Shown here: one piece after another, positions 1 to 6,281 of the stretch
Position numbering within the stretch: position 1 is the first letter of the stretch
Layout: every line of letters begins with the position of its first letter
NCBI GenBank assembly: GCA_016872675.1
Contig: VGZG01000033.1
Coordinates: 1-33,143 of the forward strand
Reading direction: 5' to 3'
Length of the DNA stretch: 33,143 bases
Origin: Planctomycetota bacterium
GTDB lineage: Bacteria > Planctomycetota > UBA1135 > UBA2386
Program-made: the position numbers and the translations under genes
Notes under the pieces: model-generated
The model's input: only the letters and a program-made list of their open reading frames with translations
Databases searched by the model: none
Told to the model about the DNA's origin: nothing

Positions 1-188
1 AGGCGGCGCCAGGTCGCGCGGTCGACGCGGGCGCCGAAGCGTTCGTCGAGGTAGCGCAGCTCGCAGGCGACGTGGGGCAGGCCGAACAGCGCCAGCGACA
101 GCGCGTAGGTCCACACCGGCGCGGCGGCCGCGGCGACGAAGGCCAGGGCCGCGAGCGCCACCGCGATGCCGGCGCGGAGTGGGCTCAC
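1..188 (-). CDS. Membrane protein, N-terminal part only (runs off the window)
   Basis: Reading the minus strand from a GTG at 188, 62 codons are open to the window edge. The protein begins [17 protein letters not shown] and shows two closely spaced hydrophobic stretches (about residues 6-22 and 24-38), then a polar segment [18 protein letters not shown]. It therefore looks like the amino end of a polytopic membrane protein. The GTG overlaps the stop codon of the 50-aa ORF upstream (GTGA), which is typical of translationally coupled genes. The GLPH motif is faintly reminiscent of Brp/Blh-type membrane oxygenases, but the residues after it differ, so I do not assign a function. Codon use has the G/C-ending third positions seen in its neighbours. 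Confidence 0.55.
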
Positions 189-337
189 GCCGTCGGGCCC
201 TTGCCGCCGCGCTTGGCGGCGAGCCTGCGCCGCACGGTCAAGCCGAGGAGTCCCGCGGCGAGCGCCACGAACAGCCACTCCGGCGCGAAGGGAAGTCCGG
301 CGGGTTCGACGGCGATGTCGGGCACGATGGCGAGCAT
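185..337 (-). CDS. Small single-helix membrane peptide, 50 aa
   Basis: Begins with ATG ([17 protein letters not shown]) and ends GGKGPTA. The middle holds one hydrophobic helix (about residues 20-35) that starts after a Pro-Glu pair and ends in a basic cluster, VRRRLAAKR. The layout Pro-Glu, helix, Arg cluster resembles a PEP-CTERM/exosortase sorting tail, but there is no large exported domain in front of it, so it may simply be a small inner-membrane peptide. Its stop overlaps the start of the next minus-strand gene (GTGA). It diverges from metK, with about 200 bases between the two starts. A shorter or absent gene is possible because the ORF is short. Confidence 0.4.
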
Positions 338-513
338 GCGCGTGATGGCGTGGGAGCGAGGGAATGGCTGCGCGCGTCGCGCGACCCGACGCGGGCCGGT
401 TGCGCGCACGAGTGTCGCACGAACGCCGCAGCGGCGTTGCGGTTCCCGCAGGTTTTTCGCGTCATCCAGCGCATGCCGGCGTCCGCTCGCGTGCATCGGC
501 GGTCGCTTCCGCG

Positions 514-519
514 TAGCTT
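514..519 (+). promoter_or_regulatory. Candidate -10 box of metK
   Basis: TAGCTT lies 25 bases before the metK ATG, and a weak -35 (GTGCAT, 491-496) sits 17 bases upstream. The predicted start near 526 would give a leader of about 19 bases with no clear Shine-Dalgarno sequence and no riboswitch-sized leader. Assigned by inspection only. Confidence 0.35.
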
Positions 520-544
520 CTCCGCCCGCAAAAGCGACCAACCC

Positions 545-1804
<1,260 letters not shown>

Positions 1805-1855
1805 CCGCCAGACCGCTGGACCGTCGGACGGCGCCGCCGTCGCGATGCGCGCACG

Positions 1856-1889
1856 CCGGCCGGCCCCATGGGGTCGGCCGGTCGCGTTT
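1856..1889 (+). terminator. Rho-independent-type terminator of metK
   Basis: Eleven to twelve base pairs form between 1856-1867 and 1870-1881 (CCGGCCGGCCC against GGGTCGGCCGG, one G-T pair), followed by a short T-containing tail, TCGCGTTT. It lies 52 bases after the metK stop and ahead of the promoter for the next unit, so it separates the two transcripts. Confidence 0.65.
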
Positions 1890-1937
1890 CGGGGGCGCGC
1901 CGGTCGCCAGCCGGTCGCCGTATGACACACGCGGCGA

Positions 1938-1965
1938 TTGACGGATCGCGGGCGCGCGCTATCTT
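1938..1965 (+). promoter_or_regulatory. Consensus-like promoter TTGACG-16-TATCTT
   Basis: TTGACG (1938-1943) and TATCTT (1960-1965) are separated by 16 bases, the closest match to the housekeeping consensus seen in the window. The predicted transcription start is near 1972-1974, giving a leader of about 174 bases before the ATG at 2147. Most other genes here have almost no leader. Confidence 0.6.
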
Positions 1966-1985
1966 CCTCCTCAGCATCTGGACAG

Positions 1986-2117
1986 CCCACCGCGCGAGCG
2001 GGGGGCGGCCAACCTGCCGAGGAGCGGCAAGGTGGTCTGGTCCGGCCCGCGTGGGCCGGACCGATGCGCGCGGGCCGAGTGGCCCGGCGAACGAAGGCTC
2101 CTGCGGCCGCCGGCCGC
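1986..2117 (+). ncRNA. Highly structured leader or small RNA: chain of five GC hairpins
   Basis: Between the promoter and the 97-aa gene the RNA can fold into five consecutive stems with short loops. Stem 1 is 1986-2005 (CCC, mismatch, CCGC around a GCGA tetraloop). Stem 2 is 2007-2037 (GGCC...GGTC outer pairs and TGCCG/CGGCA inner pairs, loop AGGAG). Stem 3 is 2039-2062, a perfect 10-bp stem with loop GCGT. Stem 4 is 2071-2086 (CGGGCC/GGCCCG, loop GAGT). Stem 5 is 2103-2117 (GCGGCC/GGCCGC). The AGGAGC at 2020-2025 is also complementary to GCTCCT at 2097-2102, so a long-range loop contact is possible. The whole may be a cis-regulatory leader or an independent RNA. I do not recognise a known riboswitch class. 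Confidence 0.5.
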
Positions 2118-2146
2118 TCCGGGTGCGTTCCCCCCGAAGAGGACGC

Positions 2147-2440
2147 ATGCACCCGAACAGCAAGCAGTCGAACTTCCTGTCGGCGCGCGCGACGACGACC
2201 CCGTCGCCCGCGGCCCTGACGCCGTCGGTCGCGCCGACGTTGTCGATCCGCATCGACGACGCCAACCCGAACCATCACCTGTGGCAGAACCACGGCTGGT
2301 GGTGGATCCACTACGTCGTGCACCGCGGCAACCGCAAGGAGCGCATCCGCCGATCGCTGCAGACGCGCGATCTCGAGGTGGCGCGCCGGCGGCGCGACGA
2401 CCTGTTTGCGCGGCTGCGCGCGGCGGGGGTGGCGGCGTGA
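2147..2440 (+). CDS. Small protein resembling the arm-type DNA-binding domain of integrases, 97 aa
   Basis: Starts at an ATG with one of the few Shine-Dalgarno-like sequences in the window (AAGAGG, 2137-2142). Residues 1-30 are a low-complexity Ser/Thr/Ala/Pro leader. The core, about residues 40-90, reads NPNHHLWQNHGWWWIHYVV, then a basic stretch with RIRRSLQTRDLEVARRRRD. The aromatic beta-strand signature followed by 'RRSLxTRDxxxARxRRD' is what I associate with the N-terminal arm-type domain of tyrosine recombinases. No catalytic domain (R-H-R-Y) follows, so it is not an integrase itself; DNA or RNA binding is an inference. It sits behind the long structured leader and is GTGA-coupled to a 63-aa ORF. 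Family placement is by motif memory only. Confidence 0.65.
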   Translation: MHPNSKQSNFLSARATTTPSPAALTPSVAPTLSIRIDDANPNHHLWQNHGWWWIHYVVHRGNRKERIRRSLQTRDLEVARRRRDDLFARLRAAGVAA

Positions 2441-2628
2441 GCGCCGGCGATCCGGCGGCGATCCGTCGGTCGTTCGCGCTCCGCGCGATCGGCGTGGCCT
2501 CGCGCCGCGGCCTGCTGCGCAACGAGACCGCGGCGTGGCGGGCGATCCGCCGCCCCGCGTCGTGGCCGGGTCGCGTCGCCGCGGCGCACGGGCCACGCTC
2601 GGGCAGCGGCGCCCCGCAGCGCGAGTGA
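2437..2628 (+). CDS. Small basic hypothetical protein, 63 aa, coupled to the preceding gene
   Basis: A GTG at 2437 overlaps the TGA of the 97-aa gene (GTGA). The product (VSAGDPAAIRRSFALRAI..., ending GSGAPQRE) is rich in Arg and Ala, has no hydrophobic helix and no motif I recognise. The support is the start/stop overlap and its position between the small gene and nagB. At this GC content a 63-codon ORF can also occur by chance, so it is uncertain. Confidence 0.35.
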   Translation: MSAGDPAAIRRSFALRAIGVASRRGLLRNETAAWRAIRRPASWPGRVAAAHGPRSGSGAPQRE

Positions 2629-2652
2629 GCTGACCGCGTCGCGGCGTCGCGC

Positions 2653-2681
2653 TTGCCGCCGGCGCGCGCGGTCGGCACAGT
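2653..2681 (+). promoter_or_regulatory. Candidate nagB promoter TTGCCG-17-CACAGT
   Basis: TTGCCG (2653-2658) and CACAGT (2676-2681) have a 17-base spacer. The predicted start near 2688 leaves about five bases before the ATG at 2693, so the message would be nearly leaderless. The same TTGCCG hexamer recurs in front of cdd. Confidence 0.4.
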
Positions 2682-2692
2682 CTGCGCGCCCG

Positions 2693-3430
2693 ATGAACTC
2701 GCCGTCCGTCCGCATCCTCAACCACGCGTCCGAGGCCGTGCCGCTGCTGCTCGCCGAGGTGCGAACGCTCGCCGCACGCCCCGGCCGGCCGCTGCTCGGC
2801 TTCGCCACCGGCGGGACGTTCACGGCGTTCTTCCGCGCGCTGGCCGACGAACTGGCGCACGGTCGCATCGACGCCGGCCGACTGTGCGCGACGCACCTCG
2901 ACGAGTACCTGGGCTTCGGCCCGGAGCGCTTCGGCGGCATGGTGCACGAGCTGTGCGAAGGCTGTCCGCCGCTGCGCGACTGGCTTTTGCGCGGCGCCTT
3001 CGTGCCGTTGCCGCACGACGGCGCGCCGGCCTCGATCGCGGCGCACGCAGCGCGCCTGCGCGAGCTCGGCGGCGTGCAGTTGCAGTTCCTCGGCATCGGC
3101 CGCAACGGCCACCTCGCCTTCAACGAGCCGGGCACCCCGTTCGGCAGCGGCTTCCACGTCACCGACCTCGCCGAGACGACCCGCAACGACGCGCGCGCGC
3201 GTTTTTCGCCGCAGGAGCCGCCGACGCGCGCGGTGACGTCGGGCCTCGCGACGATCGTCGCCGCCAAACGCCTCGTGCTGTGCGCGTTCGGCGGCAAGAA
3301 GGCCACGGCGGTGCGCGCCATGCTGCGCGGCCCGATCGATCCTGCCTGCCCCGCGAGCCTGCTGCGCCAGCATCCCGACGCGCATGTGCTGCTCGATCGG
3401 GCGGCCGCCGCCGACCTCGCGTCGGCCTAG
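2693..3430 (+). CDS. nagB: Glucosamine-6-phosphate deaminase (NagB family)
   Basis: A 245-aa cytoplasmic enzyme that should convert glucosamine-6-phosphate to fructose-6-phosphate and ammonia. Visible family motifs are the phosphate-loop region GFATGGT (36-42), the LDEY motif (69-72, Asp70 as general base) and GIGRNGHLAFNEPG (134-147). The last includes His140 and Glu145 of the catalytic relay; Asn138 replaces the Asp of the E. coli enzyme, a change also common in Gram-positive NagB. The C-terminal allosteric tail of the 266-aa E. coli protein is short or missing. The secreted GH3 hexosaminidase-type fusion lies 61 bases downstream on the same strand, consistent with amino-sugar use. A 6-phosphogluconolactonase is the main alternative, but the LDEY and NEPG motifs favour NagB. 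Confidence 0.88.
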   Translation: MNSPSVRILNHASEAVPLLLAEVRTLAARPGRPLLGFATGGTFTAFFRALADELAHGRIDAGRLCATHLDEYLGFGPERFGGMVHELCEGCPPLRDWLLRGAFVPLPHDGAPASIAAHAARLRELGGVQLQFLGIGRNGHLAFNEPGTPFGSGFHVTDLAETTRNDARARFSPQEPPTRAVTSGLATIVAAKRLVLCAFGGKKATAVRAMLRGPIDPACPASLLRQHPDAHVLLDRAAAADLASA

Positions 3431-3479
3431 CTTGCGGTCGGCGCGGTGGCGCGCACCTGCGCCGCCGGCGCGCGAACGC

Positions 3480-3485
3480 TACGCT
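3480..3485 (+). promoter_or_regulatory. Leaderless-type -10 box of the GH3 fusion gene
   Basis: TACGCT is followed by exactly six bases and then the GTG start at 3492, so transcription would begin at the start codon itself. No good -35 box is visible at the expected distance. Confidence 0.4.
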
Positions 3486-3491
3486 GCTGCG

Positions 3492-6281
3492 GTGTCGATC
3501 GCCCTGCGCCTGCTCGCCCCATTCGCCCTCGCCGCGGCCGCCGTCGCCCAGGATCCCGTCGCCGATCTGCTGGCGCGGCTGACCCTCGAGGAGAAGGCCG
3601 GCCAGCTGTTCATGTCGTGGAGCCTGTCGCGCGGTGAGCAGAAGCTGCTCGGCGCCAGCAACCACGACCGCATGGTCGGGTGGGTGCGCGACGCCGGCCT
3701 CGGCGGCGTGATCCTCAGCCTGGGCACGGTCGACGACGCGGCGGCGCTGGCGCCGAAGCTCCAGGCCGCGGCGAAAGTGCCGCTGTTGCTCGCCGGCGAC
3801 TTCGAGGGCGGCGTGTGGTTCCGCCTGCGGGGCGCGACCGAACTCGGCAACCAGATGCTGGTCGGCGCCACCGGTTCGCCAGCGCTCGCCGAGGCGATGG
3901 GCCGCATCACCGGCGAGGAGGCGAAGGCGCTCGGCTTCCACTGGGCGTTCGCGCCGGTGCTCGACGTCAACAGCAACGCCGCCAACCCGATCATCAACGT
4001 GCGCAGCCTCGGCGAGGATCCGCAGCGCGTCGCCGTGCTCGGCGCGGCGCTGGCGCGCGGCATCCGGCAGGCGGGCGTGATTCCGTGCGGCAAGCACTTC
4101 CCCGGCCACGGCGATGTCGACACCGACTCGCACCTCGCGCTTGCCACCGTGCCCGGCGACGGCGCGCGGCTGCGCGCGGTCGAGCTGTTCCCGTTCGCGG
4201 CGGCGGCGAAGGACGGGCTCGAAGCGGTCATGACCGGCCACCTCGGCGTGCCTGGGCTCGGCGAGGATCCGGCGGTGCCGGCGACGCTGAGCCGCCGCAT
4301 CCTGACCGACGTGCTGCGCGGCGAGCTTGGCTTCCGCGGCCTCGTCGTCACCGACGCGCTCGAGATGGGCGGCGTCAAGAACGCGTTCGCGCCCGGCGAA
4401 GTGGCGGTGCGCGCGCTGCTCGCCGGCGCCGACGTGCTGCTGATGCCGCCCGACCCGCTGGTCGCGCGCGCCGCGGTGGTCGAGGCCGTGCAGCAAGGCC
4501 GCGTGCCGATGGCGCGCCTCGACGACGCCGTGCGGCGCATCCTGCAGGCCAAGCAGTCGGTCGGCCTGTTCGACGGCCGCGGCCGCGTCGCCGCCGATTG
4601 GCGTGAGCGGCTGCGCGCCCCGGCCAACGAGAGGGTCGCCGACGCAATCGCCGCGCGCGGCCTCGTGCTGGTGCGCGACCGCGACGGCGCGCTGCCGCTG
4701 CGCGCGGCCGCCGGCGACGACGCGCCGCTGCTGGTCACGCTGGTCGACAAGGACGAGGGCCAGGGCGAGACCTTCGCGCAGGCGCTCGGCGACGTCGTCG
4801 CCGCCGATCGCCGCATCCGCCTGCACGGCGGCAGCGCGACCGACGAGGTCGCGGCGGCGGCGGCGCGCATCGCCGCTGCGCGCACCGTCGTGCTGTCGCT
4901 GCACGTCAAGGTGCGCGAGTACCAGGGCGGCGTGGCGCTGCCGCCGGTCCTGCAGCCAGCGCTCGCGGCGTTGACCGCAGCCCAGCGCGTGGTCACGGCG
5001 TCGTTCGGCAATCCGTACCTCGTGCAGGCGCTGCCGCACGCCGACGCTTACCTCGCCGCCTTCGTCGACACCGAGCGCGTCGAACGCGCGGCCGCCGCGG
5101 CGCTGCGCGGCGACGCCCCGATCACCGGCCGGCTGCCGGTCTCGATCCCCGGCGTCGCGGTTGGCGGCACGGGTCTGTCGCGGCTGCCGGGCACGGCGCT
5201 GCCGCGCACGTCGCCAGCGCTCGCCGATCTCGACCCGACGCTGCCCGACCAGCTGTTCGGCCTGCTCAACCGCGCGGTCAACGACAAGGCCTTCCCCGGC
5301 GCCGTCTGCGTGGTTGCGCGCCGCGGCGCGGTCGTCGCCGAGGTCGCCGTCGGCGCGCTCGACTTCGCGCCCGACGCCGCCGCCGTCTCGCCCGACACGC
5401 GCTACGACCTCGCGTCACTGACCAAGGTCTGCGCCACGACGCCGGCCATCCTGCGCCTCGTCGCCGCCGGCAAGCTGTCGCTCGCCGACCAGGCGCAGAA
5501 GTGGCTGCCGGCATTCACTGGCACCGGCAAGGACAAGGTGACCGTGCGCCATCTGCTGGCGCACCAAGCCGGACTGCCTGCCTACGAGCGCTACTACAAG
5601 ACCATGCAAAGCAAGGCGGCGATCGTCGCCGCGGCGTGCGCCGAGCCGCTGATGAGCGAGCCCGGCGGCAACGTCGTCTACAGCGACCTCGGCTTCGTGC
5701 TGCTGATGGCGATCACCGAGGCGTGCAGCGGCGAGGACTTCGTGGCGTTCGCGCAGCGCGAGGTCTGGGCGCCGCTCGGCATGGCGAGCGCCGCGTTCCA
5801 TCCGACGGCCGGCGCTGCCGGCGCGGCGGCGCCGACGGAGGACGATCCGGCGCGCGGCGGCGTGTTGCGCGGCTTCGTGCACGACGAGAACGCCTTTGCC
5901 ATGGGCGGCGTTTCTGGCCATGCCGGCATGTTCGCCAACGCGATGGACGTCGCGCGCCTGGGCGTGGCGCTGCTCGCCGGCGGCCGCGACTGGCTGCCGC
6001 GCGGCGTCGCTTCGCTCGTCGGCGAGCCGGCCGGCATCGGCGAGGACCGCACGCGCGCGATCGGCTTCCAACTGCTCGTCGGCGGTGGCTACGGCGGCAC
6101 CAAGGTCGCGCCCGGCACGTTCGGCCACACCGGCTTCACCGGCACGTCGCTGTGGTGCGACCCGCGCCACGATCTCTGCGTCGCGCTGCTGACCAACCGC
6201 GTGCATCCGACCCGCGTCAACAACAAGATCCACGCCGTGCGCCGCGCCGTGCACGACGCGGTGCTCCAGTCCGTCCGATGA
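3492..6281 (+). CDS. Secreted GH3 beta-N-acetylhexosaminidase-type domain fused to a beta-lactamase-type serine hydrolase
   Basis: A 929-aa protein. The GTG at 3492 is chosen because a signal peptide follows directly (VSIALRLLAPFALAAAAVAQ, cleavage near residue 19). Residues 20-380 form a GH3 barrel with the NagZ-type motif KHFPGHG (201-207), the Asp212-Ser-His214 acid/base loop and the nucleophile Asp288 in VVTDALEMGG. Residues 400-560 resemble the GH3 C-terminal domain. Residues 590-929 are a class-C beta-lactamase/DD-peptidase-like domain with Ser642-L-T-Lys645, Tyr730-Ser-Asp and His879-Thr-Gly. Similar fusions are known in other bacteria, notably Bacteroidetes. Probable role: release of beta-linked GlcNAc (or muropeptide fragments) outside the cytoplasm, with a linked esterase, amidase or peptidase activity. 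nagB upstream could use the product; the SGNH hydrolase gene downstream overlaps by ATGA. Confidence 0.9.
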   Translation: MSIALRLLAPFALAAAAVAQDPVADLLARLTLEEKAGQLFMSWSLSRGEQKLLGASNHDRMVGWVRDAGLGGVILSLGTVDDAAALAPKLQAAAKVPLLLAGDFEGGVWFRLRGATELGNQMLVGATGSPALAEAMGRITGEEAKALGFHWAFAPVLDVNSNAANPIINVRSLGEDPQRVAVLGAALARGIRQAGVIPCGKHFPGHGDVDTDSHLALATVPGDGARLRAVELFPFAAAAKDGLEAVMTGHLGVPGLGEDPAVPATLSRRILTDVLRGELGFRGLVVTDALEMGGVKNAFAPGEVAVRALLAGADVLLMPPDPLVARAAVVEAVQQGRVPMARLDDAVRRILQAKQSVGLFDGRGRVAADWRERLRAPANERVADAIAARGLVLVRDRDGALPLRAAAGDDAPLLVTLVDKDEGQGETFAQALGDVVAADRRIRLHGGSATDEVAAAAARIAAARTVVLSLHVKVREYQGGVALPPVLQPALAALTAAQRVVTASFGNPYLVQALPHADAYLAAFVDTERVERAAAAALRGDAPITGRLPVSIPGVAVGGTGLSRLPGTALPRTSPALADLDPTLPDQLFGLLNRAVNDKAFPGAVCVVARRGAVVAEVAVGALDFAPDAAAVSPDTRYDLASLTKVCATTPAILRLVAAGKLSLADQAQKWLPAFTGTGKDKVTVRHLLAHQAGLPAYERYYKTMQSKAAIVAAACAEPLMSEPGGNVVYSDLGFVLLMAITEACSGEDFVAFAQREVWAPLGMASAAFHPTAGAAGAAAPTEDDPARGGVLRGFVHDENAFAMGGVSGHAGMFANAMDVARLGVALLAGGRDWLPRGVASLVGEPAGIGEDRTRAIGFQLLVGGGYGGTKVAPGTFGHTGFTGTSLWCDPRHDLCVALLTNRVHPTRVNNKIHAVRRAVHDAVLQSVR

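Follow-up and report, generated by a model that had tools for sequence, protein, structure and literature searches.

Organization of the locus

The window analysed here, a stretch of 33,143 nucleotides from a Planctomycetota bacterium (contig VGZG01000033.1), is part of a draft genome of 3.58 Mb (G000) and carries, in 5′ to 3′ order, metK, a sigma-70-like promoter, a leader of 174 bases and an open reading frame (ORF) of 97 amino acids. The genes and promoter elements are the following.

545..1804, + strand: metK, S-adenosylmethionine (SAM) synthetase, 419 aa; no second MetK was found in G000; 98% amino acid identity to that of the sister genome G001
1921..1929, + strand: TATGACACA box, a candidate transcription-factor site; position conserved before the copies with the small protein
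1938..1965, + strand: sigma-70-like promoter, TTGACG-16-TATCTT; the stretch of box and promoter is 88% identical to G001
2147..2440, + strand: 97-aa protein, with a conserved core at about residues 31–91 (HHLWxNxxxWW...RxSLxTRD...ARxRRDxL)
2437..2628, + strand: 63-aa ORF, probably not a gene; no family match

The promoter at 1938–1965 was the single sigma-70-like site found in positions 1–6000, where 0.1 would be expected, in agreement with an earlier sequence-only reading in which the best promoter of the window drives the leader. At the DNA level, G000 and G001 are 99% identical in the RNA, 88% in box and promoter and 84% in the core of the small protein; in a DNA search of relatives, the RNA together with box and promoter was 96% identical in G001 and the protein there 79%. 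The 63-aa ORF, in contrast to the 99% of the RNA, shares 56% identity with many gaps, which resembles the intergenic DNA (59%). It is probably not a gene, judging from this divergence, and the proposal that it forms a GTGA-coupled part of the unit was dropped.

The window and G001 each encode one MetK, in both cases directly upstream of the predicted riboswitch described below. The window MetK is approximately 50% identical to MetK of other members of the genus, as opposed to 98% to G001, and this sole copy could represent a gene replacement.

The leader RNA is conserved and covaries

When folded on its own, the leader (1973–2146) reached a minimum free energy of −105.9 kcal/mol (z −2.97), with one of 200 shuffled sequences folding as well. 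The chain of GC hairpins proposed from the sequence alone exists, and the leader folds better than 199 of the 200 shuffles. The elements of the RNA were delineated as listed here, all on the + strand.

1973..2102: very probable SAM-I/IV riboswitch aptamer, based on covariation, sister copies and the topology of the solved aptamer (PMC5393176), comprising the next six elements
1974–1978/2063–2067: P1
1985–1990/2001–2006: P2
2008–2018/2026–2036: P3, with the internal loop AA (2011–2012)/U (2033)
2039–2047/2054–2062: P4
2069–2074/2083–2089: P5
2020–2024/2098–2102: pseudoknot between the P3 loop and the strand after P5
2103..2117: variable hairpin P6, the linker to the expression platform; 70% paired and different between clades

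Approximately 50 copies of the RNA (1973–2128) were found across the order of the window and beyond it, in further classes of the phylum, using covariance models of which the first was built from 10 copies and the second from 28. Of 154 genomes of the order, 32 carried the RNA according to these models, which also located it in the other classes, including three tandem copies on one contig. The DNA search returned more than one copy in each of G023, G031 and G027, several per genome. First-model matches in G116, G108 and G095 were judged false on reading as they lack the conserved core.

Across 28 aligned copies, 94.5% of the cells of the SAM-I/IV pairing were paired and two-sided changes were found in 21 of 37 pairs, with covariation covering P1, P2, P3, P4 and P5; none of 500 shuffles reached any of these measures and slid controls gave 31–46%, although the copies are phylogenetically related and the statistics thus overstate their independence. 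In some clades the alignment is imperfect at P4 and in the outer portion of P5. The outer pair of P1 occurs as GC, AU, UA and GU among the copies. The possible loop contact between AGGAGC and GCTCCT noted earlier was confirmed as a pseudoknot (2020–2024 with 2098–2102) that is paired in all 28 copies, with two-sided changes in three of its five pairs and four pair types (CG, AU, UA and GU) at the first. Covariation in relatives was the test that the sequence-only reading had itself named, and since the leader is both conserved and covarying, the refutation it had envisaged does not apply within this phylum.

Probable assignment to the SAM-I/IV class

No match was found in the window with Rfam at curated thresholds. 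Because the core of P3, CCAACC...GGUGG, was similar to the pocket for SAM in the SAM-I/SAM-IV clan, ten divergent copies were scanned with lax thresholds, whereupon five of the ten reached the curated score of RF01725, at up to 47.9 bits. Sister copies at or above the cut-off scored 47.9, 43.8, 43.0, 42.7, 41.5, 41.1 and 41.1 bits and the rest graded down to 20 bits. A similar gradation was seen when 32 genomes were scanned with RF01725 (G104 43.8, G079 41.5, G047 40.3, G027 35.2, G031 35.1, G023 22.4 and G019 19.9 bits), a scan in which the window genome gave no match. For the 211-nt stretch of the window RNA alone, RF01725 shared the top bit score, 15.9, against a curated cut-off of 41.1 that is a detection threshold and not a structural definition. 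The window copy is thus missed by Rfam and was identified through its homologues.

The order of P1 to P5 in the leader matches that of the solved SAM-I/IV aptamer, for which A3, G8, A25, A26, G48 and U69 are named as SAM-binding positions (PMC5393176). In a hand alignment to this aptamer, all six map to the window RNA, as A1976, G1981, A2011, A2012, G2034 and U2065. Together with U1977 and U2033 these constitute the pocket nucleotides of the window, which are nearly invariant in the homologues and include the AA/U internal loop of P3, the A and U of P1 and the G of J1/2. In the aligned copies P2 forms a simple hairpin and does not have the internal loop that characterises SAM-I and SAM-IV. The same absence is stated for SAM-I/IV variants, a class whose described members come from several phyla and from marine metagenomes (PMC2864571). 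The leader thus shares with SAM-I/IV (RF01725, SAM-I-IV-variant) the P1, simple P2, P3 with its AA/U pocket, P4 and P5, as well as an AACGAAG-type linker, the pseudoknot joining the P3 loop with the strand 3′ of P5, and the SAM-contact nucleotides. It differs from known members in being GC-rich, in its score (15.9 versus 41.1 bits) and in mainly controlling a small uncharacterised protein.

SAM-I riboswitches (S box, RF00162; clan CL00012) have the same ligand pocket in P1 and P3. They are distinguished by a kink-turn in P2 and a pseudoknot formed from the P2 loop, and neither was found in the leader, where P2 is a plain hairpin and the pseudoknot supported by covariation links the P3 loop with the strand after P5. 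Based on these comparisons, the leader is very probably a divergent, GC-rich SAM-I/IV riboswitch, i.e. a new representative of a known class, and the RNA itself is not undescribed as previously suggested. One distant model match, in G321, turned out to be a true SAM-I riboswitch (56 bits) and not SAM-I/IV; this standard SAM-I element (L151:1334-1523) precedes a 181-aa protein with no assigned function.

A predicted switch at the start codon

The 3′ part of the leader looks like a translational OFF switch, as suggested by the complementarity of three segments on the + strand.

2118..2128: switching strand UCCGGGUGCGU, pairing with 1974–1981 (the 5′ strand of P1) or with the start-codon region
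2136..2143: Shine-Dalgarno-like GAAGAGGA, inside the sequestered hairpin of the SAM-bound state in the predicted fold
2147..2155: sequestered start-codon segment AUGCACCCG, complementary to 2120–2128 over 9 bp, AUG included

The long closing stem GCATCTGGA/TCCGGGTGC of the single-sequence fold was rejected as the aptamer stem, which is 1974–1978/2063–2067, and represents an alternative state. Similarly, the first consensus fold was closed by 1974–1981/2118–2126, until Rfam matches of distant copies showed this to be a competing state and the counts were redone. The alternative stem 1974–1981/2118–2126 is also conserved (96% paired) and excludes P1, which argues for two competing states. When folded without ligand, the two states of the window were found to be approximately 1 kcal/mol apart, at −114.7 and −115.6 kcal/mol. 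Duplex energies in general discriminated weakly per copy when applied to the pairing at the start codon, and a focused run-length test was used instead. In this test the complementarity to the start codon had a mean run of 7.45 bp over 40 copies and of 5.15 in shuffles (Wilcoxon p 8e-11; the copies are not independent). The start-codon pairing also covaries, being CGGAUGCAUC/GAUGCAUCCG in G023b and UGAUGCGC/GCGCAUCA in G047.

In the proposed mechanism, P1 (1974–1978/2063–2067) would form at high SAM and free the strand 2118–2128, which would then pair with AUGCACCCG (2147–2155), closing the Shine-Dalgarno sequence and the start codon and turning translation off. At low SAM, 1974–1981 would instead pair with 2118–2126 and leave the start open.

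Genes predicted to be controlled by the RNA

Homologues of the small protein are encoded directly behind 34 of 52 RNA copies; across the phylum, the RNA is predicted mostly to control this small, uncharacterised and possibly DNA-binding protein. In six RNA copies, a gene for SAM synthetase follows in the same orientation; MetK is encoded directly behind the RNA in G019 and after the small protein in G031. In G098, G085, G023 and G365 (L085, L088, L107 and L144, respectively), the RNA is followed by an operon encoding a MoxR-type ATPase, a VWA/metallopeptidase-like protein and a divergent MetK-like protein. These four genomes and G019 carry a second MetK elsewhere. The association with MetK indirectly supports that the RNA may bind SAM and regulate in response to it.

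Neither in the window nor in most relatives is the RNA followed by a gene with a known link to methionine or SAM, which could point to a SAM-I/IV-type RNA that has kept its scaffold but senses another metabolite linked to the small protein. SAM-I variants that sense spermidine exist (PMC10853860), and the sister copy in G096 (L086:3301-3463) has UU for the two SAM-contacting adenines of P3, CCUUCC instead of CCAACC, being possibly altered in ligand or a dead aptamer. However, the SAM-contact positions are all intact in the window and in nearly all copies, and metK genes recur under the same RNA, making a changed ligand improbable.

Still less credit is given to a leader bound by its own product, in which the 97-aa protein would bind its mRNA and repress translation. 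In most copies the gene of the protein lies next to the RNA, and the protein is small and basic, but its verrucomicrobial homologues lack the RNA, the nucleotides of the leader are those of a metabolite aptamer, and RNA copies are present in G019, G027 and G056, where the protein was not found, which argues against the protein as the ligand of the RNA.

The 97-aa protein

The small protein was compared to known domain families. The window protein matched DUF6538 (PF20172) at 20.5 bits, below the Pfam gathering cut-off of 27; among 28 homologues, 22 had a weak match to DUF6538 and four to an integrase arm-domain family, with a best E-value of 1.2e-4 (DUF6538/Arm-DNA-bind_3) and the shown matches below the curated cut-off. 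Shared with DUF6538 and Arm-DNA-bind_3 (PF13356) are short strands followed by a helix and W, R.SL.T.D and A..RRD-like positions. Unlike these, the protein is free-standing and carries no catalytic recombinase domain: the catalytic core of tyrosine recombinases is absent from its 97 residues, and no further domain was matched. The predicted fold was beta-beta-beta-alpha at low confidence (mean pLDDT 64); in a fold search the model had no significant counterpart, a P4-type integrase entry appearing only at E 3.5, and no relative was found in a sequence search of the PDB. The first 24 codons of the ORF are poorly conserved (24%). The protein is probably a DNA-binding domain related to the arm domains of tyrosine recombinases, and the likeness to integrase arms noted from sequence holds as a distant resemblance that stays below family cut-offs.

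That RNA, protein and the 63-aa ORF move together as a small mobile or domesticated integrase-derived element is very unlikely: the patchy spread (32 of 154 genomes of the order), the weak similarity to integrase arm domains and the tandem riboswitch-gene units in G250 and G464 would fit, but the ORF is not conserved, different genes are controlled by the copies, as with a riboswitch, a catalytic recombinase accompanying the unit was not found, and terminal repeats were not noticed on non-systematic inspection. No evidence was found for the earlier proposal of such an element.

Homologues without such a leader were found in Verrucomicrobia (L009 and L010), where they are arranged in tandem behind a gene encoding a LuxR-type helix-turn-helix protein, without a riboswitch (L009:1265-1687 and L010:3935-4369). 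The sequence-only reading had counted leaderless homologues as evidence against a unit, an objection that does not hold within the phylum of the window.

The upstream box and possible joint control

A conserved promoter and TATGACAC box lie upstream of almost every RNA copy that controls the small protein. Measured from the 5′ end of the RNA, ATGACAC stands at −49 to −54 in some copies and, about one helical turn further out, at −59 to −62 in others; together these account for 32 of 34 such copies. Exceptions include at least one small-protein copy without a clear box, in G373, and a variant box, TACGACAC, in G096. Among the 18 other RNA copies the box precedes two, both in G031, which has the small protein. 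A wider TATGACAC regulon was not seen in G000, G001, G098 and G047, where box plus TTG occurs once per genome.

The box thus follows the small-protein gene, a distribution which suggests that the protein may act at its own promoter. With slightly less than even confidence, we propose that the TATGACAC box, which lies immediately ahead of this promoter, is the target of the small protein or of a dedicated partner; together with the riboswitch, this would place the gene under the control of a protein at the level of the promoter and of SAM at the level of the mRNA. Of the autoregulation considered in the earlier reading, binding to DNA thereby gains indirect support from the box, while the copies in genomes where the protein was not found speak against binding to RNA.

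The undescribed unit of that reading stands as a discrete, conserved leader paired with a small protein, but its RNA belongs to a known class; what is novel is the small protein, its box and the MoxR/VWA/MetK-like operon. As a tentative overall reading, which we rate just short of an even chance, control of an undescribed small DNA-binding protein would in this phylum be shared between a SAM riboswitch and a TATGACAC promoter box dedicated to it, with the MoxR/VWA/MetK-like operon under the same riboswitch. If true, the SAM level would feed an uncharacterised regulatory pathway and not only methionine synthesis, and the small protein and the operon, as the main SAM-controlled outputs in the phylum, would offer a handle on their function. 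The copies also constitute a large GC-rich set of SAM-I/IV riboswitches missed by the public model, for which the covariance-tested alignment is available to mend RF01725. Tandem arrays of two to three SAM-I/IV-like riboswitches, contained within 4 kb, occur at L145:198-3904 and L146:924-3046; every riboswitch in them precedes a gene for a protein of approximately 200 aa with no assigned function.
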